Assembly (NCBI GenBank): GCA_022771695.1
Contig: JALEKJ010000036.1
Coordinates: 26,357-90,356 of the forward strand
DNA: 64,000 bases
Direction of reading: 5' to 3'
DNA from: Roseburia sp.
GTDB taxonomy: Bacteria > Bacillota > Clostridia > Lachnospirales > Lachnospiraceae
Part shown: one piece after another, positions 50,427-63,963 of the stretch
Numbering within the stretch: position 1 is the stretch's first letter
How the letters are laid out: each line of letters opens with the position of its first letter
Program-made: the position numbers and the translations under genes
Notes under the pieces: model-generated
Database searches by the model: none
Seen by the model: the letters and a program-made list of their open reading frames with translations, nothing else
What the model was told of the DNA's origin: nothing

Positions 50427-50497
50427 GCAGACATAGTACATCGGTAGTATATCAGCTTCCCAAGCTGAGGAGGCGGGTTCGATTCCCGTTGTCTGCT
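50427..50497 (+). tRNA. tRNA-Gly (anticodon CCC)
   Basis: The cloverleaf has acceptor GCAGACA/TGTCTGC, anticodon stem TCAGC/GCTGA with loop TTCCCAA (anticodon CCC) and T arm CGGGTTCGATTCCCG. The CCA end is not encoded. It sits at the junction with the prophage and is the probable attachment gene. Confidence 0.93.
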
Positions 50498-56089: not shown

Positions 56090-56974
56090 CTATATAGCCC
56101 CGTAAAGCTTATTGTAATAAATTGACACATCTAACAAGTTGCTCCCTGTATCTGCATCAAAAGAAATCTCAGAATCTCCAACAACAAGTGCCATATCATC
56201 AAACGCTGATGTACGGTCACAGTGCCCGATATAATTCTCTCCATTTTTCTGCACGGTCGGCGGATTTTTCGTGAAGTCAATGGTAATAACATCTCCTAAC
56301 TGCATCGTGTCAATCAAGCGGACATAATTACCATTAACTGTAAGCTTCGGGTTCACAACCTCTCCGCTCGCCTTAAAAACAGCTTTACAGAATGTCTCAA
56401 CATCTCCATCATTTTCTAATACAATTAACTGGGCGAAGTTAAATCTACCGCCGGTGATGCCTTTAGGTGTTCCATCTGTGATGCTACACAAATATGGAAA
56501 GCCACACATCCCTTCAACTGATGCGATATTCTTGCCAAAATTGTCATAGCTTTTTAGGAACGGAGTAGGACATAGAAACGTGATTGTCATCGTCATTGTC
56601 CGATTTACATTACCACTCGGAAGGTCGAATTTATAAATCTTACCTTCGCACCAGCGCGTCACTCCCATATATGTGGAATATATCTTATACTCAAATTTGG
56701 GATTGAAGAAAGATAGTGCAGCCCTGCGTAACACATCATTCAGTACCGGATTTCTGGATTTTGCCACAATGGTTCTATCCTTTGGCGCGATTCTGTCGGA
56801 TACGACGATGCCGCCGTCTCCAACGGCATTATCTACCGTGGTAATGTCGTTCTCGTAACTCCCGAAACCGTCCAATCCATCAGACGGTATGCGCCAATCA
56901 GTACCGTCAATATTAAATTCCCTAGAATCACTCCGCACAATGCGGATTTTTACTGTCTTATCCAAATGCAACAC
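56090..56974 (-). CDS. Distal tail protein (Dit)
   Basis: A 294-residue protein of the phage_tail/Dit family: N-terminal ring-forming half (REFNIDGTDWRIPSDGLDGFGSYE, DRTIVAKSRNPVLNDVLRRA) and a C-terminal galectin-like half (VNPKLTVNGNYVRL, IDFTKNPPTVQKNG). It connects tail tube and tip. It starts with GTG or a nearby TTG and overlaps the end of the tape measure gene by 17 nt. Confidence 0.82.
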   Translation of the reverse strand: MLHLDKTVKIRIVRSDSREFNIDGTDWRIPSDGLDGFGSYENDITTVDNAVGDGGIVVSDRIAPKDRTIVAKSRNPVLNDVLRRAALSFFNPKFEYKIYSTYMGVTRWCEGKIYKFDLPSGNVNRTMTMTITFLCPTPFLKSYDNFGKNIASVEGMCGFPYLCSITDGTPKGITGGRFNFAQLIVLENDGDVETFCKAVFKASGEVVNPKLTVNGNYVRLIDTMQLGDVITIDFTKNPPTVQKNGENYIGHCDRTSAFDDMALVVGDSEISFDADTGSNLLDVSIYYNKLYGAI

Positions 56975-58967
56975 CTCTCATTAAGCCATATCTGCTTTCT
57001 ACTCTAACTGCTCTTGCAAGCTCGTCCGGTGTGGAAATCTGCTGGTTAACATTGATTGTCTGATTGAAATTTCCAAATCCGCCAATGCCACCGGTTGCTC
57101 TCGCGCCAGACATATTTGCCTTCATTGTAGACATGCTAGCATTGATATTTCGCGTCATAGCATCCGGATTCATTAAATCATCCATTCCATCATCAAATCC
57201 TGCAACACACATCTTGCCTAGATATTCAAACTTTCTGGATGGTGAGTGTATATCAAGAGCTTCTTTTGCAGCATTAAATAAATTGCTCGCAAGATTCTTA
57301 ACCTGATCTACCAGCCAATTCCATCCGCTACTTATTCCGTTCCAAATACCGTCAACGATATTCTTTCCAATACTTCCCCAGTCCATAGACTTAAATGAGT
57401 TTACAAGACTTAAGAATAATTGCGGAACTGCGGCTAATAAATGAGTCACGCTAACGACCATATACTGTGCTAATTTTGTTAGAATAGTAACTGCAGCGGA
57501 TAACAGCTTTGGTATGTTTTCAATGATGGCAGAAACAAGCCTTGCCATTAATATTGGTGCAGCTTCTAAAAGCTTTGGTATGGCATTCATCAATCCTTCT
57601 AGCAGTCCAAGTATCAACTCAATTCCGGCTGATATGATATTGCCCAATGTGTCCGGATCTGTCAGTGCCATTGCTAAAGAAATAACTGCCTCTACACCAG
57701 CAACGAGCAAATCAGGTATTTTCTGTGCGATTCCTGTTATGAACTCTAAAAGCAACTCGCTTCCACCATTAAGCATTGAATCTGCGTTGTTTGTTATACC
57801 AGATAGAAGATTCATTACGATGTCATACGCAGTAGAAGCAAGAGTTGGAATAACCTCTACTATTCCGTTTGCGAGCGTTGATAATATTTCTCCTCCAGCA
57901 CTCATTATTTGTGGCAAGTTCTGCTGCAATCCTGTCGCTAAGGATGAAATCATGTTAATGCCAGATTCCACCAAGTCCGGCAAGATTTCATTAATAATAT
58001 CCGGAATTCTTTGAGCTATAATCGGAAGCAATTCTTCGATTAAATCTGCGATTGCATAAAGTGCTATTTCAACATGCGGTAGAACATTTTCTGCAACAAT
58101 TTCTACTGATTCAACGAAATTATTAATTAGCGTTTCAGGATCCGCATCTTCATTAGCCAATCCAGCCACAAGATTGGCCCAAGATGCTTTCATTGAAGAA
58201 ATGGAACCAGAGATTGTTGTAGCAGCTTCTTTTGCAGTAGTTCCAGTAATTCCCATTTCATCTTGAATTACATGAATCGCATCTACTACATCCGCATAGC
58301 TTGAAATATCATACTTTATTCCGGAAATAGCTTGTGCATCTGCAAGCAATCGTTGCATCTCTTCCTTTGTTCCGCCATATCCCAGCTTCAAGTTATCAAG
58401 CATTGTATAATTTTGTTTTGCGAAACCTTGATATGCATTCTGAATGGATTCCATGCTAGAGCCCATTTTATTTGCGTTATCTGACATATCAATGATTGCT
58501 TGGTCAGCCTTTTCAGCTGCTTTTACTGTGTCTCCATTCAAGCTTTGAATTAATGATGCAGAAAAGCTTGTTACAGTTTCTAGATACTCATTTGTAGACA
58601 ACCCGGCTGTCTTGAATGCTTTCTCTGCATTTTCTACAACATTCCATGTATTATTAGTTAAGCCTACATACTCATCCTTAACTTCTTCTACTGTTTTCCC
58701 AACAGAATCAGCATACTCCTGTAATGTTTTTCCACCATTTCCAAACAGAGTCTCTATTCCGCCAAAAAGCTGTTCATAATCTGCATAGCTCTTTACAGCA
58801 GCTGTTCCGAGTGCAGTAACACCAGCCGCAGCCGCACCTACTCCGGCTGTAAAAATCTTAAGCCCGCCAGACGCTACACTCCCCAACGTGCTTCCGAGTG
58901 CCTTTACTCCACTTACTACACCTTTGCTGTCTAATTTTGTATCAAAAATCAGACTTCCGTCTGCCCT
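56958..58967 (-). CDS. Tape measure protein, apparent AGG start
   Basis: About 669 residues: hydrophobic helix near the N-terminus, a TP901-type core (SYADYEQLFGGIETLFG...), long amphipathic helical repeats and an HSPSRKFEYLGKMCVAGFDDGMDD tail. It sets tail length. The frame extends 27 codons upstream of the first usable start (a TTG without a ribosome site) and encodes ADGSLIFDTKLDSKGV, normally preceded by Met. At that Met position the codon is AGG (58,965-58,967), right after AAGGCGGTGA. I take AGG as the start. Confidence 0.8.
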   Translation of the reverse strand, partial: RADGSLIFDTKLDSKGVVSGVKALGSTLGSVASGGLKIFTAGVGAAAAGVTALGTAAVKSYADYEQLFGGIETLFGNGGKTLQEYADSVGKTVEEVKDEYVGLTNNTWNVVENAEKAFKTAGLSTNEYLETVTSFSASLIQSLNGDTVKAAEKADQAIIDMSDNANKMGSSMESIQNAYQGFAKQNYTMLDNLKLGYGGTKEEMQRLLADAQAISGIKYDISSYADVVDAIHVIQDEMGITGTTAKEAATTISGSISSMKASWANLVAGLANEDADPETLINNFVESVEIVAENVLPHVEIALYAIADLIEELLPIIAQRIPDIINEILPDLVESGINMISSLATGLQQNLPQIMSAGGEILSTLANGIVEVIPTLASTAYDIVMNLLSGITNNADSMLNGGSELLLEFITGIAQKIPDLLVAGVEAVISLAMALTDPDTLGNIISAGIELILGLLEGLMNAIPKLLEAAPILMARLVSAIIENIPKLLSAAVTILTKLAQYMVVSVTHLLAAVPQLFLSLVNSFKSMDWGSIGKNIVDGIWNGISSGWNWLVDQVKNLASNLFNAAKEALDIHSPSRKFEYLGKMCVAGFDDGMDDLMNPDAMTRNINASMSTMKANMSGARATGGIGGFGNFNQTINVNQQISTPDELARAVRVESRYGLMRGVAFG

Positions 58968-58994
58968 TGCATCACCGCCTTTTCTTAATCATGA

Positions 58995-59537
58995 CTATTT
59001 AAACACATTGCTAAACTCTTCTAACTCTGCCCGCTCTTCATCGCTCATTGGCGGTTCAATCTCCCATGCACGTCTAAGCTCCTCGTAAATGTCTTTATCC
59101 CCATCAGCAGACTTCTCGTAGCATCGATATCCAATAACCTCACGTAGTTTTGTACTCTCATTCAATCCTCCAAGAAGAGCCAAAAACTTATGCCAGTGCA
59201 ATTGTTCAACTTCCATCAAATCAATGCCGTATTGTCCTAAAAAAGCCGCATAAATAAGGTCTGCATCAATTTCGTAGTCAAGAGCAATCACATTGCTGTG
59301 AGAAATCGGACGAGGTAGCGGAGATTCCGGACGACTGAATGCAAACAACTCTGTCAAGTCGCAATATGATGGCATATCGTTCTTAAAGAGATACGATATA
59401 TCAATGGTATCTCCTCGTTTCAACTTTCTAACTGCAATCTCAAATCTCATCCATAAGCGGAAATCTGTATAAATAGAATAGGCTCTACCGCCTACCATAA
59501 CGGTATTAGGTAAAGCCTTTTTTGTTAAATCCATCAT
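58995..59537 (-). CDS. Gp15-family tail assembly protein
   Basis: A 180-residue protein of the Listeria-phage-A118 Gp15 family (YSIYTDFRLWMRFEIAV, LIYAAFLGQYGIDLMEVEQLHWHKF). It lies between the upstream chaperone-like gene and the tape measure, the usual place for the second tail-assembly chaperone. It overlaps the previous gene by four bases (ATGA-type junction). It uses ATG. Confidence 0.82.
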   Translation of the reverse strand: MMDLTKKALPNTVMVGGRAYSIYTDFRLWMRFEIAVRKLKRGDTIDISYLFKNDMPSYCDLTELFAFSRPESPLPRPISHSNVIALDYEIDADLIYAAFLGQYGIDLMEVEQLHWHKFLALLGGLNESTKLREVIGYRCYEKSADGDKDIYEELRRAWEIEPPMSDEERAELEEFSNVFK

Positions 59538-59917
59538 CGCTTCTGCGGCACCGTTGCCATCTTCTCTGCCGCCTTTGTCATGGAAATGATCTTGTCGATT
59601 GGAATTCTGTCAAATGACCGCGCCGCCTTTTCTGCGTCATAATCAGTAATCGGCTTGCCATAAGCATCAATCACCTTTTTAACGGCAATCGTAACCTCTG
59701 ATAAGTCAATCTCTGAAATGTCGTCAGAACCGAACATCTCCTTTGCAGCTTCACTTCCTACAAGTTCCTTGATAAACCCGTGCAGTTTTTCAAATTTCTG
59801 ACGAACACTAAGTTTTGATGCGTCCACCTTAAGCACATCATCGATTTTCTCTACAACTGAAAGTGTTTTTGGCGGAAGGTCATAGCTTCTGCCATCAACG
59901 ATAATCGTATATTCCAT
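59534..59917 (-). CDS. Tail assembly chaperone-like protein
   Basis: A 127-residue acidic, mostly helical protein (EYTIIVDGRSYDLPPKTLSV, EKLHGFIKELVGSEAAKEMF). Its size and place after the major tail protein and before Gp15 match the first tail chaperone of A118-like phages. It has an ATG start behind AGGAGG. No slippery frameshift site joining it to the next gene was evident. Confidence 0.7.
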   Translation of the reverse strand: MEYTIIVDGRSYDLPPKTLSVVEKIDDVLKVDASKLSVRQKFEKLHGFIKELVGSEAAKEMFGSDDISEIDLSEVTIAVKKVIDAYGKPITDYDAEKAARSFDRIPIDKIISMTKAAEKMATVPQKR

Positions 59918-59931
59918 TCCTTATTTTCCTC

Positions 59932-60426
59932 CTATTCTGATGCACCGTTCAAAGTAAATGTCGGAACACCATCCGAAACAGTGCAAGTTCCTCTCTGAAT
60001 CTTTGTGATACTGAATTTGAAATAAATCTTCTCAGCAACTGAATCAAAGTGGTCAAGAATCAACGTAGAAGTGGTGTTCCATGCATTAAACTTCGGTGCA
60101 TCTTCTGTTCCGACATTGCCAGCAAAAACAATAAGCAAATTCTTCTTAACATCCTCGCCGGTTGGCAGATTGTAAAACATATCGTACAGATAATCAAATG
60201 CAGGGTCGCCTTTGTTCGCCTGTAACTCCTGCGACAACTCCGGTTTGTACGAAGTGATGTCTGTTGTTATCATTTCGTTCTCGATAAAGTCGTTATCTTC
60301 CGTCTGCGCATTAAGCACAAGGTCGAAGATAGTTGACTTCCCGATTCTTGCCCAACTCTCTGTACCGTTTGCTGAAATGTTTAAAAACGGGATTGTCTTA
60401 AACTTCTTTAATCTCTCTAATGCCCT
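59932..60426 (-). CDS. Major tail tube protein, AGG start
   Basis: The frame is open from a TAA at 60,427-60,429 to the stop, giving 164 residues beginning (R/M)ALERLKKFKTIPFLNIS. The first ATG, GTG or TTG is a GTG 36 codons in, without a ribosome site, and starting there would lose a tube strand. GGGAGG lies 8 nt before AGG-GCA at 60,421-60,426. The rest (WARIGKSTIFDLVLNAQTED, KIYFKFSITKIQRGTC) fits the major tail protein of this phage type. AGG replaces ATG as start. Confidence 0.82.
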   Translation of the reverse strand, partial: RALERLKKFKTIPFLNISANGTESWARIGKSTIFDLVLNAQTEDNDFIENEMITTDITSYKPELSQELQANKGDPAFDYLYDMFYNLPTGEDVKKNLLIVFAGNVGTEDAPKFNAWNTTSTLILDHFDSVAEKIYFKFSITKIQRGTCTVSDGVPTFTLNGASE

Positions 60427-60840
60427 TTATAATTCCTCCCTTTCTCTGGTATATGTTATTGATAAAAGTATCTGATACATTGTGTCCTTATCTCCGGCTT
60501 CCATAGGATACGGAGAACCGGTAATTGATAACCCTGTGACCTCGCGATTCTTATCAAGCGGCGGAAAACTGTAATTGTACGGGAAATCATCAACCCAATA
60601 TGTCAAATCTTCTAACCACTCGTCTGCCTCTTTACGCTCTGACTTTGACACGCCAGACTGCCTTGCCAAGAACTGATAATATTCGGTAATCTCATAACTG
60701 CTGTCTGTAAAATTCTTAATGTCACGGCTCGGAGATTTGAATAATCCATATTTGTCAGAACCCTCCGGAACATGATTTGTATCAATCACTATGCATTCAT
60801 AGTTTTTCAATAACTTGACGATGTACTCTGATATTGTCAT
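60427..60840 (-). CDS. Minor capsid/tail terminator-type protein
   Basis: A 137-residue protein (TISEYIVKLLKNYECIVID...) in the third slot of the A118-like minor-capsid gene trio, probably the tail terminator. It starts with ATG behind GGAGG, overlaps the preceding gene by four bases, and its TAA stop directly abuts the AGG of the major tail gene. Confidence 0.72.
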   Translation of the reverse strand: MTISEYIVKLLKNYECIVIDTNHVPEGSDKYGLFKSPSRDIKNFTDSSYEITEYYQFLARQSGVSKSERKEADEWLEDLTYWVDDFPYNYSFPPLDKNREVTGLSITGSPYPMEAGDKDTMYQILLSITYTREREEL

Positions 60841-61190
60841 TGAATTCCTCCTGCTACTTTCTTTGCACCTGCAAGAATTTGCGCCTTGTATTGCTGCTTC
60901 ATTCGTTCAAACCAATAATTACCTCGCTCCGGCGCTTCGCTGAAACTCGCCGGCATATAATACCAGCGTCTTGCATATGGTGTGTGATATTCCAATTGCC
61001 CGCTGCCAATTTTGCTATTATCTCCAGACAATATCAATGCTCCTGTATCTTTCGGAACTTTCGGAGCACATAGTTTTAAACACTCACTATCAATGAATTG
61101 TTGAACATTTCCTTTCTCCTCAAGTCCACGTGATTTAAGAACCTCGTTTGCATCGCATTTTACGGATGCAAGTCTGAAAAAATCTGCCAT
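60837..61190 (-). CDS. Minor capsid protein 2-type
   Basis: A 117-residue protein with VPKDTGALILSGDNSKIGSG and YHTPYARRWYYMPASF, typical of Minor_capsid_2/neck HK97 gp10-like proteins of Gram-positive siphophages. The start is a normal ATG-GCA-GAT, useful as a control for the AGG-GCA starts nearby. It overlaps its neighbours by 1-4 bases. Confidence 0.78.
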   Translation of the reverse strand: MADFFRLASVKCDANEVLKSRGLEEKGNVQQFIDSECLKLCAPKVPKDTGALILSGDNSKIGSGQLEYHTPYARRWYYMPASFSEAPERGNYWFERMKQQYKAQILAGAKKVAGGIQ

Positions 61191-61555
61191 TAAGCAACCA
61201 CCACCTTAATATTCTTGCAAAAATCACGGTTGGAATTGTCATTTACAGACTGGATAATGCCTGACTTCGGATATTTTCCCATCAAATCTGAGATGCGCTT
61301 GCCCTTAACATCCTCGACAACATCATCAACTGCACCATATACGATGCAATCCTCTTCGTTTGAAGAACTAAGCACCAATCCATCATAAGTGCCCTCTGGG
61401 AACGTTATGGACGCATACCGGGCAATGCTGATTTTGCCGTTATTGTTCTGCTTTTCGGTCTTATCAGTCCACTGAACACCTTCAACAACAGTACGTTTCC
61501 ACTCGGAATCAGATATTTTGTTGTAGATTGTGACTGTATCAGTAAATAATGCCAT
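61190..61555 (-). CDS. Minor capsid protein 1-type
   Basis: A 121-residue protein (ALFTDTVTIYNKISDSEWKR, SKSG-like YPKSGIIQSVNDNSNRDF) of the Minor_capsid_1 slot, probably a head-tail joining protein. The start ATG-GCA follows AAAGGCGG; a longer open frame upstream is the small gene on another frame. It keeps ATG although its second codon and context resemble the AGG-started genes. Confidence 0.75.
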   Translation of the reverse strand: MALFTDTVTIYNKISDSEWKRTVVEGVQWTDKTEKQNNNGKISIARYASITFPEGTYDGLVLSSSNEEDCIVYGAVDDVVEDVKGKRISDLMGKYPKSGIIQSVNDNSNRDFCKNIKVVVA

Positions 61556-61556
61556 A

Positions 61557-61667
61557 CTACCGCCTTTCATAATTTGTAAATACGTCTGAAAAGCGAACGA
61601 CTCTGCCAAGTGATGGACTATGAACACCGAATAATGCACGAATAAATATTCTAAATACCCTCTTCAT
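61557..61667 (-). CDS. 36-residue phage micro-gene
   Basis: A short frame, MKRVFRIFIRALFGVHSPSL then GRVVRFSDVFTNYERR, fills the gap between two head genes. Its ATG overlaps the preceding stop (TGATG) and its TAG lies one base before the next ATG, so it is embedded in the translational chain. It is very basic. Function is unknown; a small connector or decoration protein is possible. Confidence 0.6.
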   Translation of the reverse strand: MKRVFRIFIRALFGVHSPSLGRVVRFSDVFTNYERR

Positions 61668-62023
61668 CAATACGCACCTACCAATCCCGTACCGCTCAAC
61701 CATGCTCGGATTGAACTCTGTAACTCGCTCCTAAGCTGTTCCTCGGTCTGCACCACATAACTCTCGGAATATCCGTCGTTGCTGGCGGAAGAAATGCCTT
61801 TGCCCTTGCCGGACTTTGCATCTACAGCCATCTTATCAATGACATTACATATACAGTCTTTCAACTGCTCATGTCCGAATGTTTCCTCTGTAATGTTAGC
61901 CCAACGAATCCAGCCAATAACGCGTTGAACTTCTTTTTCTGCAAGAGATTCCGCACGGTCGAAGTCCTCTTGCTTCACGGTATCATGAAGGGAGCTGTAA
62001 TACTCCCAAGTTACATGTGACAT
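61667..62023 (-). CDS. Head-tail connector protein
   Basis: A 118-residue protein (WEYYSSLHDTVKQEDFDRAESLAEKEVQRVIGW) with the helical start of the phage Gp6-like head-tail connector family. It directly follows the major capsid gene in reading order. It starts with ATG behind GGAGGGAG. Confidence 0.75.
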   Translation of the reverse strand: MSHVTWEYYSSLHDTVKQEDFDRAESLAEKEVQRVIGWIRWANITEETFGHEQLKDCICNVIDKMAVDAKSGKGKGISSASNDGYSESYVVQTEEQLRSELQSSIRAWLSGTGLVGAY

Positions 62024-62047
62024 TTACGGCTCCCTCCTTTTCATTCA

Positions 62048-63046
62048 CTATGATGTTGCCTTTGGCAAAATCTTAATTCCCTTAAGAACACCAGCCATCT
62101 TGCTGTTTTTCAGTACTGCACCTGCTAAGAGCTCAACCTCGCCCTTCTTAACTGCTCCAGGAGCGTTAAGGTCTGGGAGATATGTCTTAAGCATCTTCTG
62201 ACCATTTACAGAGATTCCGTGGAATGCATTTAAGCCGAACTTCACTGCGTAAATCGCTGTCTCTCCGTATGCAGAAGTAGACGGTTCGGAAGTCTCAATG
62301 ACATCCACTGTCTTGGTTCCGTTGTAGTACTCGCCGCAATCCATCATCGGAATGCCGTTGTACTTCTCAACAGTTCTGCCAAATCCATCGGTGCTTCTCT
62401 CGTAGAATCCTGCTCTACGTGCTGCAGCTCTAACCTTGGTAAGCATCTTGTTGTTCATAAGCAAGATGTCCGGCTTTTCTGCCAAGATGGAAATAAATGC
62501 ATCCAGCTCATCTAAGAATGCATTGTAGTTATCATCTAACAATGCGCTTGTAGAGATATCAGACTCAGAAGTAATCTCCGTATCAGAACCGGAAAGAATC
62601 TTCTTCAATCCATCAAATGTGTTTACCACATATCCCGTACCGGAAGCCGCGGAAGTTCCGTTGATAACAAGGTTGTGGAAGTAGTTTGAACCTGCCTTGG
62701 TTTTTTCCTTAATCTGGAAGTCCATTTCATCTACTGCACCGGAAGTCTCTGCGATAACTCGGTCGATTTCAAAAGAACCTCCAAGAATAACAAGGTCTGC
62801 CGTTGCCTTTTCTCTCTTTGCTTCTCCAGGTGTATATTCCGTGTTAAGCTTTCTCACTGCTACAGTTGATGGAGACTTTAATCTCGTGTATCCATATGTC
62901 AGTGTGCTTCCACCTGTTCCAGGGGAAACGGTATCATCAAATGTCAACATATCCAGCAAGAGTGAATCTCTTCTGAACTCATCAATGACCTGCTGGTCTA
63001 CTTTGTCGGCCATACCGACTTTTGCTTCTGCTAATGTAATTGCCCT
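62048..63046 (-). CDS. Major capsid protein, AGG start
   Basis: A 332-residue HK97-type coat protein. The readable frame begins (R/M)AITLAEAKVGMADKVDQQ, and the N-terminal AITLAEAKVGMADKVDQ stretch is typical of Clostridia phage coat proteins. The next start, an ATG 11 codons in, lacks a ribosome site. AGGAGG lies 8 nt before AGG-GCA (63,041-63,046), so ribosomes should start at AGG. The core (FDDTVSPGTGGSTLTYGYTR, ILLMNNKMLTKVRAAARRAG) is intact. It lies 14 nt after the scaffold gene. Confidence 0.85.
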   Translation of the reverse strand, partial: RAITLAEAKVGMADKVDQQVIDEFRRDSLLLDMLTFDDTVSPGTGGSTLTYGYTRLKSPSTVAVRKLNTEYTPGEAKREKATADLVILGGSFEIDRVIAETSGAVDEMDFQIKEKTKAGSNYFHNLVINGTSAASGTGYVVNTFDGLKKILSGSDTEITSESDISTSALLDDNYNAFLDELDAFISILAEKPDILLMNNKMLTKVRAAARRAGFYERSTDGFGRTVEKYNGIPMMDCGEYYNGTKTVDVIETSEPSTSAYGETAIYAVKFGLNAFHGISVNGQKMLKTYLPDLNAPGAVKKGEVELLAGAVLKNSKMAGVLKGIKILPKATS

Positions 63047-63060
63047 TACTTATTCCTCCT

Positions 63061-63642
63061 TTATTTTCCATACTTTGCTGATAATGCGTCTCTAAGACTT
63101 CCGGTTTCTGACGGATTTTTCTTATCAACAGTTCCAATCGGATTTCCGGTTCCTACAACATTAGGCTCCGGTTCTCCAAATAACATCTTGCTGTCCTCTG
63201 CTTCTGTTAAGGCTTTCAGTGCTGCAGCAACATCCTCTTTTTGATTCTTGGATGCTTTTAATGTATCTACATCCAATAAAGCGGTGATTGCCTTGACATT
63301 TTTACCTTTTACAGTTGCAATACTATCTTTCAGAATGTCATTGAAGTCTCTGTCAGCGATTTCTTTCTGGTGAGTTTCATCCTTTGTCTGGATGTCCTTT
63401 TCCAAATCAGCAATCTTCTGCTTCATTCCGCTGACATCAGCATCCTTGAACTCTTCAAGGTCCTTTTTCAAATCTTTGATAGTAGTTGCCTGTGTGGAAG
63501 CCTTTTCCTTCTCGCTCTCTAAATCCTTTTGAGCCGTCTCCAAGTCTTTCTTAACAGGGTCGTACTCCTTATGGTGCATATCAAGCACACTGTCAATTTG
63601 TTCCTTGGATAATCCAAGTGCTTCTAAGTCTTCTCTTTTCAT
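63061..63642 (-). CDS. Phage scaffold protein (GP20-type)
   Basis: A 193-residue highly charged protein, largely coiled coil (about residues 25-95), of the phage minor structural GP20/scaffold family (REDLEALGLSKEQIDSVLD start). It guides capsid assembly and is then removed. It uses a normal ATG behind AAAGGAG. It lies between the phage tRNA and the capsid gene. Confidence 0.85.
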   Translation of the reverse strand: MKREDLEALGLSKEQIDSVLDMHHKEYDPVKKDLETAQKDLESEKEKASTQATTIKDLKKDLEEFKDADVSGMKQKIADLEKDIQTKDETHQKEIADRDFNDILKDSIATVKGKNVKAITALLDVDTLKASKNQKEDVAAALKALTEAEDSKMLFGEPEPNVVGTGNPIGTVDKKNPSETGSLRDALSAKYGK

Positions 63643-63677
63643 TCTTCTCTATCTCCTTTAACGATGTTTTATTTAAC

Positions 63678-63694
63678 GTGGGAGAATCACCCAC
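63678..63694 (-). other. Small hairpin between phage tRNA and scaffold gene
   Basis: GTGGG and CCCAC close a 7-nt loop just after the tRNA 3' end on the minus strand. There is no T-run, so it looks more like a processing or stabilising structure than a terminator. Confidence 0.4.
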
Positions 63695-63700
63695 AGATAA

Positions 63701-63771
63701 TTGCGGACCGGGGAATCGAGCCCCGCATTCTGGCTAAGGAGACCAGCGTGATACCTCTTCACTAATCCGCC
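63701..63771 (-). tRNA. Phage tRNA with anticodon CCU and initiator-like features
   Basis: A 71-nt cloverleaf: acceptor GGCGGAT/GTCCGCA, D arm GTGA-AGAGGTA-TCAC, anticodon stem CTGGT/GCCAG with loop CTCCTTA, variable AATG, T arm CGGGG-CTCGATT-CCCCG, discriminator A, no encoded CCA. The anticodon CCU pairs with AGG. The first pair is G1-A72, a mismatch; lack of a 1:72 pair is the hallmark of bacterial initiator tRNA. G29-C41 and G30-C40 match two of the three initiator G-C pairs. Pyrimidine 37 is unusual, and the 11:24 pair is elongator-like. A plain tRNA-Arg(CCU) remains the alternative. Confidence 0.85.
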
Positions 63772-63776
63772 ATGTC

Positions 63777-63798
63777 GCCCGGCTATTGCGAACCGAGC
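63777..63798 (-). other. Hairpin just upstream of the phage tRNA
   Basis: GCTCGG and CCGGGC (one G-T pair) enclose a 10-nt loop ending 5 nt before the tRNA 5' end. It could aid processing of the tRNA out of the late transcript. No gene is recognised between 63,772 and 64,000. Confidence 0.35.
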
Positions 63799-63856
63799 TT
63801 TTGAAAGGATGGGAACATGAACCAAAAAATAGAAAACGCCGAGGAATGAAAACAAT

Positions 63857-63963
63857 TTAAGGGTAATCAAAGTTTTTGAGGGGCTACCTTTTTGAGGGTA
63901 CAGTTTGAGGGTTTTGTTTGAGGGGCTTTCTTGAGGGGCTGGTTTGAGGGTTCTTCTTGAGGG
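63857..63963. repeat. 13-bp-periodic TTGAGGG tandem repeat array
   Basis: TTGAGGG occurs at 63,876, 63,892, 63,905, 63,918, 63,931, 63,944 and 63,957, with a TTAAGGG at 63,857. The last six starts are spaced exactly 13 bp. The heptamer is invariant while the six spacer bases vary. Since 13 is not a multiple of three it is not a simple protein repeat. It looks like a protein-binding array or a packaging or control site upstream of the phage tRNA. Confidence 0.8.

Follow-up and report, generated by a model that had tools for sequence, protein, structure and literature searches.

In a prophage of Roseburia sp., major virion genes carry AGG where a start codon is expected, and the same operon encodes an initiator-type tRNA with the anticodon CCU. 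The prophage lies in a stretch of 64,000 nt (hereafter the window: positions 26,357-90,356 of the forward strand of contig JALEKJ010000036.1, assembly GCA_022771695.1), in which the tRNA and all AGG-start genes are on the minus strand. That AGG stands at the start position of virion genes is a real observation, confirmed here; that translation of these genes begins at AGG through a phage initiator-type tRNA whose anticodon has changed to CCU is a prediction, and one that we hold with high confidence. Moreover, comparison across related phages supports the view, central to the initial annotation of this DNA, that start codon and anticodon changed together, and the co-occurrence holds whether one begins from orthologous genes or from the tRNA.

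The initial annotation described three genes (major capsid, major tail and tape measure) that lack any ATG, GTG or TTG behind a ribosome site and have AGG-GCA instead, and reading each frame from its upstream in-frame stop to the AGG agrees with this description (Table 1). The reported spacing of 8 nt from GGAGG to AGG was found in the major capsid and major tail genes, but the AGG of the tape measure gene does not directly follow AAGGCGGTGA, as had been stated, since four bases (TGCA) intervene. The next standard start (ATG, GTG or TTG) is an ATG 11 codons inside the major capsid gene, lies 36 codons inside the major tail gene, and is a TTG 27 codons inside the tape measure gene. Other genes of the same virion operon retain ATG, two of them as ATG-GCA. 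The window ends at the contig end, and a search with portal relatives located the missing part of the prophage on another contig of the same genome (C7), where the portal (C7:3183) and minor head (C7:4600) genes, both named from PHROGs, likewise begin with AGG at the expected place; 25 and 16 codons, respectively, separate it from the next standard start. Consequently, the prophage has five AGG-start genes, more than the three first noted. No ATG, GTG or TTG lies between the upstream in-frame stop and the AGG in any of the five, and a ribosome-site scan at the next standard starts of all five returned no match. The region that separates the minor head gene from the tRNA contains arrays of short GAGGGT/CCCTCA repeats in opposite orientation, one at 63836-63960 and one closing contig C7 (L340), and these repeats are the likely reason why the assembly breaks here.

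Upstream of the capsid gene and on the same strand, ARAGORN and a count of paired positions concur with the initial annotation in identifying a phage tRNA with the anticodon CCU and an unpaired 1:72 position. This position is G.A in the window tRNA and is unpaired in all nine family tRNAs (via G.A, C.A, U.C and A.A); the remaining 20 pairs are intact in 177 of 180 cells, often through changes on both sides of the pair, and A73, G2-C71 and C3-G70 are kept. In the host, 1:72 is unpaired in the initiator alone (30 host tRNAs, the best 30 of 37 matches), and the host genome carries its own tRNA-Arg(CCU) as well as a normal initiator tRNA. By eye, position 20 is A in the host tRNA-Arg(CCU), A in one of the nine family tRNAs and U in the window tRNA. 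The phage tRNA thus resembles the bacterial initiator tRNA (tRNAfMet) in having no Watson-Crick pair at 1:72 and in having scaffold relatives with CAU, but differs in its CCU anticodon, in U.G at 31-39, in U11-A24, and in being encoded in a phage virion operon.

Tape measure orthologues, counted where a ribosome site was matched and the sequence context was not already represented, link the start codon to the tRNA. All 12 orthologues with a non-CAU operon tRNA begin with the matching codon (10 AGG, 1 AGC, 1 ATA), against 0 of 13 with a non-standard start, L054 apart, among those lacking such a tRNA (Fisher p = 1.9e-7, a value whose true weight is smaller because the loci share ancestry). In the ten AGG cases (the window, L083, L245, L276, L280, L281, L282, L284, L315 and L316) a CCU tRNA lies 4.5-5.1 kb upstream, with an identical tRNA shared by L245 and L276. 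The AGC case (L324) has the anticodon GCU in an 8-nt loop, and its next standard start is 53 codons on, while the ATA case (L006) has a UAU tRNA 9.8 kb upstream. A locus with a CAU tRNA (L288) starts its tape measure with ATG, and eleven loci without such a tRNA use ATG, GTG or TTG. Two further loci with AGG tail genes (L283, L286) were not counted, since their contigs stop short of the tRNA place.

The portal gives a similar picture. (A further orthologue comparison listed capsid and portal genes that had a non-standard start or a tRNA.) AGG is found at the portal start of our own prophage and of L083, L280/L294, L282/L295, L302, L303, L304/L305 and L323 (the stretches of L302, L303 and L323 finish before the tRNA position); ATA is found in L334, L335, L337 and L218, which share one UAU tRNA; and ATG is found in L296, L306, L310 and L333, all with a CAU tRNA. 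In L285, the major tail gene has ATG and a later open reading frame (ORF) of the virion module has AGG, followed by no standard start until 56 codons further. The initial annotation had also named AGG-start homologues that never carry the tRNA as an observation that would count against it, and none were seen among the loci examined, the tRNA-less ones being on stretches that end early. Base-calling error and prophage decay were considered and ruled out: independent genomes and contigs show the same AGG/CCU pattern, and error does not explain the tape measure match of start and tRNA, nor why two further viral contigs, L304 and L305, combine an almost identical CCU tRNA with a portal gene that starts at AGG.

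These comparisons also bear on the idea that AGG is a weak start used by the host initiator tRNA, or that translation begins at a downstream ATG, GTG or TTG, the CCU tRNA being unrelated. The in-frame ATG 11 codons into the major capsid gene would suit this idea, yet AGG occurs in 0 of the 13 tape measure orthologues without a non-CAU tRNA on stretches reaching the tRNA place, start and anticodon match there for four codons (CAU-ATG included), and 0 of the 5 next standard starts in our own prophage have a ribosome-site match. Furthermore, the next standard start can be very distant (187, 126 and 53 codons in L233, L247 and L324, respectively), and we regard this explanation as very improbable.

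Searches that began from the tRNA recovered further AGG starts. A model of the nine family tRNAs was run on 397 host-family genomes, all of which match via ordinary tRNAs, and anticodons were read from eight loci among the matches listed: CCU in our own prophage, G301, G136 and G143, CAU in G356 and G186, the latter within a host tRNA array, and two tRNA-Gln. G232 also matched, at 65.1 bits. An anticodon-blind scaffold pattern applied to viral contigs matched 72 tRNAs (25 distinct), of which 65 have CAU and 7 have CCU, with 1:72 unpaired in 69; of the seven contigs with CCU, L456 and L411 were new and the other five had been known before. All five phages found via the CCU tRNA alone (G301, G136, G143, L456 and L411) have AGG starts, and in four of them (G301, G136, L456 and L411) ORFs have PHROG virion or packaging matches. 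G301 has AGG in the portal, minor head, major capsid and tape measure genes, with the major head PHROG match beginning at the second residue after AGG; G143 has AGG in the portal and minor head genes; L456 and L411 each show an AGG start, the genes concerned encoding a tape measure and a terminase small subunit. In G136, a different phage, the AGG ORFs are a portal, a head maturation protease, a major head protein, a tail protein and a tape measure (by PHROGs), with next standard starts 29, 46, 21, 9 and 35 codons on, in that order. In named phages, searching for distant DNA similarity brought up a single record, with 65% identity across 20% of the query, while the portal protein matched 60 records, all below 60% identity and the best without annotation. 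The two tRNA-Gln(CTG) matches, from other genomes and near a plateau of 63.7 bits, gave rise to the idea that the scaffold came from a host tRNA-Gln, which was dropped: the CAU relative L287 scores nearest the host initiator, and the window tRNA has no decided nearest among 30 tRNAs of its own host.

Initiator-type tRNAs with other anticodons extend the pattern. Scans of viral contigs for an initiator-type D arm with an anticodon other than CAU gave 145 stretches, of which only the 89 recognised by ARAGORN were used; 1:72 is unpaired in 78 of these, and after dropping the other 11, merging tRNAs with identical first 70 bases and leaving out loci under 3 kb, 47 loci remained. Their anticodons are CCU, GAC, AAC, UAU, UAC, GUU, GAU, CUU, CGU, GCA, CCC, ACU and GGU, 12 of 13 of which match codons beginning with A or G, like AUG and GUG. 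In these 47 loci, 28 ORFs have the cognate codon placed after a ribosome site and lack a standard start in the ten codons that follow, compared with a mean of 7.6 when anticodons are shuffled among loci and a maximum of 21 in 10,000 shuffles, although de-duplication was by tRNA sequence only and related loci remain. Divided by codon, such ORFs in cognate versus other loci number 8/40 versus 1/472 for ATA, 8/104 versus 2/408 for AGG, 3/30 versus 9/482 for AAC, 3/75 versus 7/437 for GTT, 2/15 versus 5/497 for ACG, 2/20 versus 5/492 for AAG, 1/29 versus 6/483 for AGT and 1/56 versus 0/456 for GTA. Individual genes point the same way: in L233 the portal and major head genes have AGG, no standard start follows for 81 and 187 codons, respectively, and the capsid PHROG match begins at the second residue after AGG; in L247 both genes have AAG, with the anticodon CUU and a next standard start 126 codons on in the capsid gene; and in L260 the portal and minor head genes have ACG, with the anticodon CGU (gene names in L233, L247 and L260 from PHROGs). 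These sequences make a strong case for codon-anticodon pairing at ATA and AGG, a fair one, via single genes, at AAG, ACG and AGC, and a weak one at the remaining codons.

Several other tRNAs were observed in these scans. Initiator-type phage tRNAs with valine anticodons (GAC, AAC) are numerous, and their stand-out candidate starts are only L208/L213 (GTC) and L156 (GTT). Initiator-type phage tRNAs with CAC (matching GTG) and CAG (matching CTG) occur in L481, L482, L485, L486, L493, L488 and L489. Anticodon loops of 8 nt (CGCU, GCUU) are present in initiator-like phage tRNAs at L300:13668, L301:13668 and L324:12607; quadruplet start codons were considered for these and rejected, as L324 fits a triplet AGC start and L300 fits nothing seen.

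The meaning of AGG inside genes distinguishes a change of start signal from a change of code. At 84 internal AGG positions with at least 4 homologues, the consensus residue is Arg at 50, Lys at 15, Met at 1 and others at 18; AGG therefore appears to retain its meaning inside genes, aligning with Arg or Lys and only once with Met. In some uncultivated Bacilli, AGG is described as read as methionine genome-wide, and two phages there as lacking a CCU tRNA (PMC8629427). The likeness to our prophage lies in AGG together with a CCU tRNA, but those Bacilli read AGG as Met inside genes, whereas in our case AGG within genes still means Arg and the change is confined to starts. A phage-wide reassignment of AGG to methionine, as described for the UBA7642 Bacilli (PMC8629427), would account for AGG at the place of the expected start Met, yet the internal consensus above and the tRNA-Arg(CCU) already present in the host make it exceedingly improbable.

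A further alternative is that the CCU tRNA is an ordinary elongator supplying Arg at AGG, the AGG starts being errors or decay, and ARAGORN indeed labels the window tRNA as tRNA-Arg. In those window genes that were read, just 12 codons out of 3663 are internal AGG, and consequently there is little AGG demand to supply; moreover, the 1:72 position unpaired in all nine family tRNAs, the CAU anticodon in 65 of 72 scaffold tRNAs, and the recurrence of the pattern in independent contigs and genomes all speak against this alternative, to which we attach almost no weight. Phage-encoded tRNAs for codon supply are elongators and often occur in arrays. They share with the present case a tRNA gene in a phage genome, but here there is a single initiator-type tRNA in the virion operon.

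Closer parallels come from the laboratory. Initiator tRNAs have been engineered to carry other anticodons, such as CUA for amber starts, and the pairs AAG/CUU and GUA/UAC are reported to support initiation in engineered systems (PMC13232202, PMC8576571). The likeness extends to start codon and initiator anticodon being changed together, with AAG/CUU also occurring in L247, and the difference is that these are laboratory constructs whereas the phage cases are natural and involve several codons.

The features read directly, namely AGG behind a ribosome site without an upstream alternative, the CCU anticodon, the open 1:72 position, a scaffold dominated by CAU, and co-variation of start codon and anticodon, are consistent with the following route. 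An ancestral phage CAU initiator tRNA would have changed its anticodon together with the start codons of its client genes. The tRNA would probably be made from the start of the virion transcript, since it ends 58 bases before the scaffold gene and its relatives have a terminator-like hairpin just upstream. It would then be charged and, as its 1:72 position is open, may be formylated; IF2 would bind the formylated tRNA, which would enter the P site with its CCU matched to AGG, and virion proteins would start at AGG. A test of 328 codon-anticodon combinations in vitro showed that IF3 accepts none but Watson-Crick pairs at codon positions one and two (PMC10158994), and AGG with CCU conforms to this rule.

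The terminator-like hairpin of the relatives, with its T run just upstream of the tRNA, was seen by eye in 10 of 11 loci, and one locus was confirmed by scan. It lies at L280:4513-4559 and, also by eye, in L281, L282, L083, L284, L287, L304, L373, L375 and L006, and it was not seen, by eye, in the window stretch before the tRNA. A second G+C hairpin abutting the tRNA often follows it in these relatives.

A number of observations weigh against our interpretation, which is a prediction from sequence. First, the initiator marks are incomplete: the initial annotation had named the anticodon-stem G-C pairs among the features that let an initiator tRNA be formylated and enter the P site, and while those at 29-41 and 30-40 are present, 31-39 is U.G and the third G-C pair is missing (all three are present in the CAU relative L287); similarly, all nine family tRNAs have U11-A24, as in elongators, rather than purine 11-pyrimidine 24, and relatives of the GAGCAG type such as L006 and L245 have, by eye, A11-U24. 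Second, the match between tRNA and start codon is imperfect. The portal has ATG despite a CCU tRNA in eight loci (L248, L299, L311, L314-L317 and L336), which represent four distinct start contexts by eye; L083, whose major capsid protein is 95% identical to that of the window, has ATG in the major capsid and major tail genes and AGG in the portal, minor head and tape measure genes; and L284 has AGG in the tape measure alone among the genes read. Recoding thus proceeds gene by gene, given the mixed state of L083 and the eight CCU loci with an ATG portal. Additionally, the place expected for the start of the L054 tape measure is occupied by AAA, a GTG lying two codons upstream, and the portal of G143 has a GTG three codons before its AGG. 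Finally, in the wider family, cognate starts were absent for GTC (0/95 ORFs), ATC (0/19), TGC (0/12), ACC (0/5) and GGG (0/12), leaving the anticodons GAC, GAT, GCA, GGT and CCC with zero; three CCU loci (L234, L237, L256) showed no AGG start in the scan of the available stretch; AGG candidates in L235, L240, L259 and L271 are weak or have a standard start nearby; and no matching start was seen for the initiator-like tRNA of L300, with its 8-nt anticodon loop.

Features of the window are collected in Table 1. The major tail gene matches phrog_3099 (function not named) and, weakly, phrog_820 (major tail protein). A tRNA-Gly(CCC) at 50427-50497 adjoins the end of the prophage gene block and is a possible attachment site.

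Table 1 Coordinates of the phage tRNA, the AGG-start genes and associated features in the window
Feature	Position	Strand	Basis
Major capsid gene, AGG at start position 63044-63046	62048..63046	-	PHROG major head protein
GGAGG ribosome site of capsid gene, 8 nt before AGG	63055..63059	-	
Major tail gene, AGG at start position 60424-60426	59932..60426	-	PHROG matches; orthologues with AGG, GTG or ATG
GGAGG ribosome site of major tail gene, 8 nt before AGG	60435..60439	-	
Tape measure gene, AGG-GCA with AGG at start position 58965-58967	56958..58967	-	PHROG tape measure; orthologue comparison
AAGGCGGTGA ribosome site of tape measure gene	58972..58981	-	
Scaffold gene, ordinary ATG, first protein gene after tRNA	63061..63642	-	PHROG head scaffolding protein
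Operon gene retaining ATG-GCA (in-phage contrast)	61190..61555	-	
Minor head gene retaining ATG-GCA (in-phage contrast)	60837..61190	-	
Phage initiator-type tRNA, anticodon CCU, no encoded CCA	63701..63771	-	ARAGORN 63702-63770; covariance model R1, 90.5 bits (R1 built from nine family tRNAs, this one among them)
Anticodon CCU	63737..63739	-	
G1 of the tRNA, which forms no pair with A72 (63702)	63771	-	Alignment A5 and pair count
G+C-rich hairpin directly before tRNA	63777..63798	-	

If the pairing works, its purpose can be approached through the genes that use it. The purpose that we favour, tentatively, is a private initiation channel that would tie virion protein synthesis to the phage's late tRNA. 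The initial annotation went further in suggesting that virion proteins would be made only while this tRNA is expressed, and that this might act as a late switch or a lock; both suggestions are conjectural. It is also quite conceivable that the pairing works without any purpose, a spare CAU initiator tRNA having drifted to CCU and its clients having followed in a neutral ratchet. Patchy use between close relatives (L083, L284), the retention of CAU in 65 of 72 scaffold tRNAs and the many different anticodons reached would all be expected of such drift, but in L294 the flagged AGG starts are confined to the packaging and virion module, with 0 of 13 ORFs flagged before the terminase. The first AGG flag in L295 falls on the terminase small subunit gene, where 70 codons separate the AGG from the next standard start, and two of the three AGG flags in L302 are doubtful calls in other ORFs. 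Restriction to virion genes may not be general, because the GTT gene of L156 is ParB or methyltransferase-like and not structural. A third explanation, which we consider rather unlikely, is that the pairing evolved to sustain virion synthesis when a defence system or toxin cuts or depletes the host initiator tRNA. Toxins that cut initiator tRNA are known (VapC type), and this explanation would also account for phage initiator tRNAs that have CAU.

Beyond this prophage, we lean, if only slightly, towards the view that phages naturally run private initiation channels, in which initiator tRNAs with altered anticodons (CCU, UAU, CUU, CGU and GCU; likely AAC, GAC, GUU and more) are matched to non-standard starts of virion genes, and capsid, portal and tail proteins would have a formylated first residue other than methionine and would not be made without the phage tRNA. 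To our knowledge, the accepted view is that a single initiator tRNA, with the anticodon CAU, reads start codons, and initiation from all 64 codons has reportedly been the subject of a published study. Among the matches listed in the open-licence PMC literature, there was no report of a natural initiator tRNA with an anticodon other than CAU. If our interpretation is true, the start signal can be recoded while the genetic code inside genes stays as it is, through a natural second channel that spans several codons. This would account for virion genes that phage annotation truncates or misses, would offer ready-made orthogonal initiator tRNAs for synthetic biology, and makes testable what limits start-codon identity and the first amino acid of proteins in living cells.

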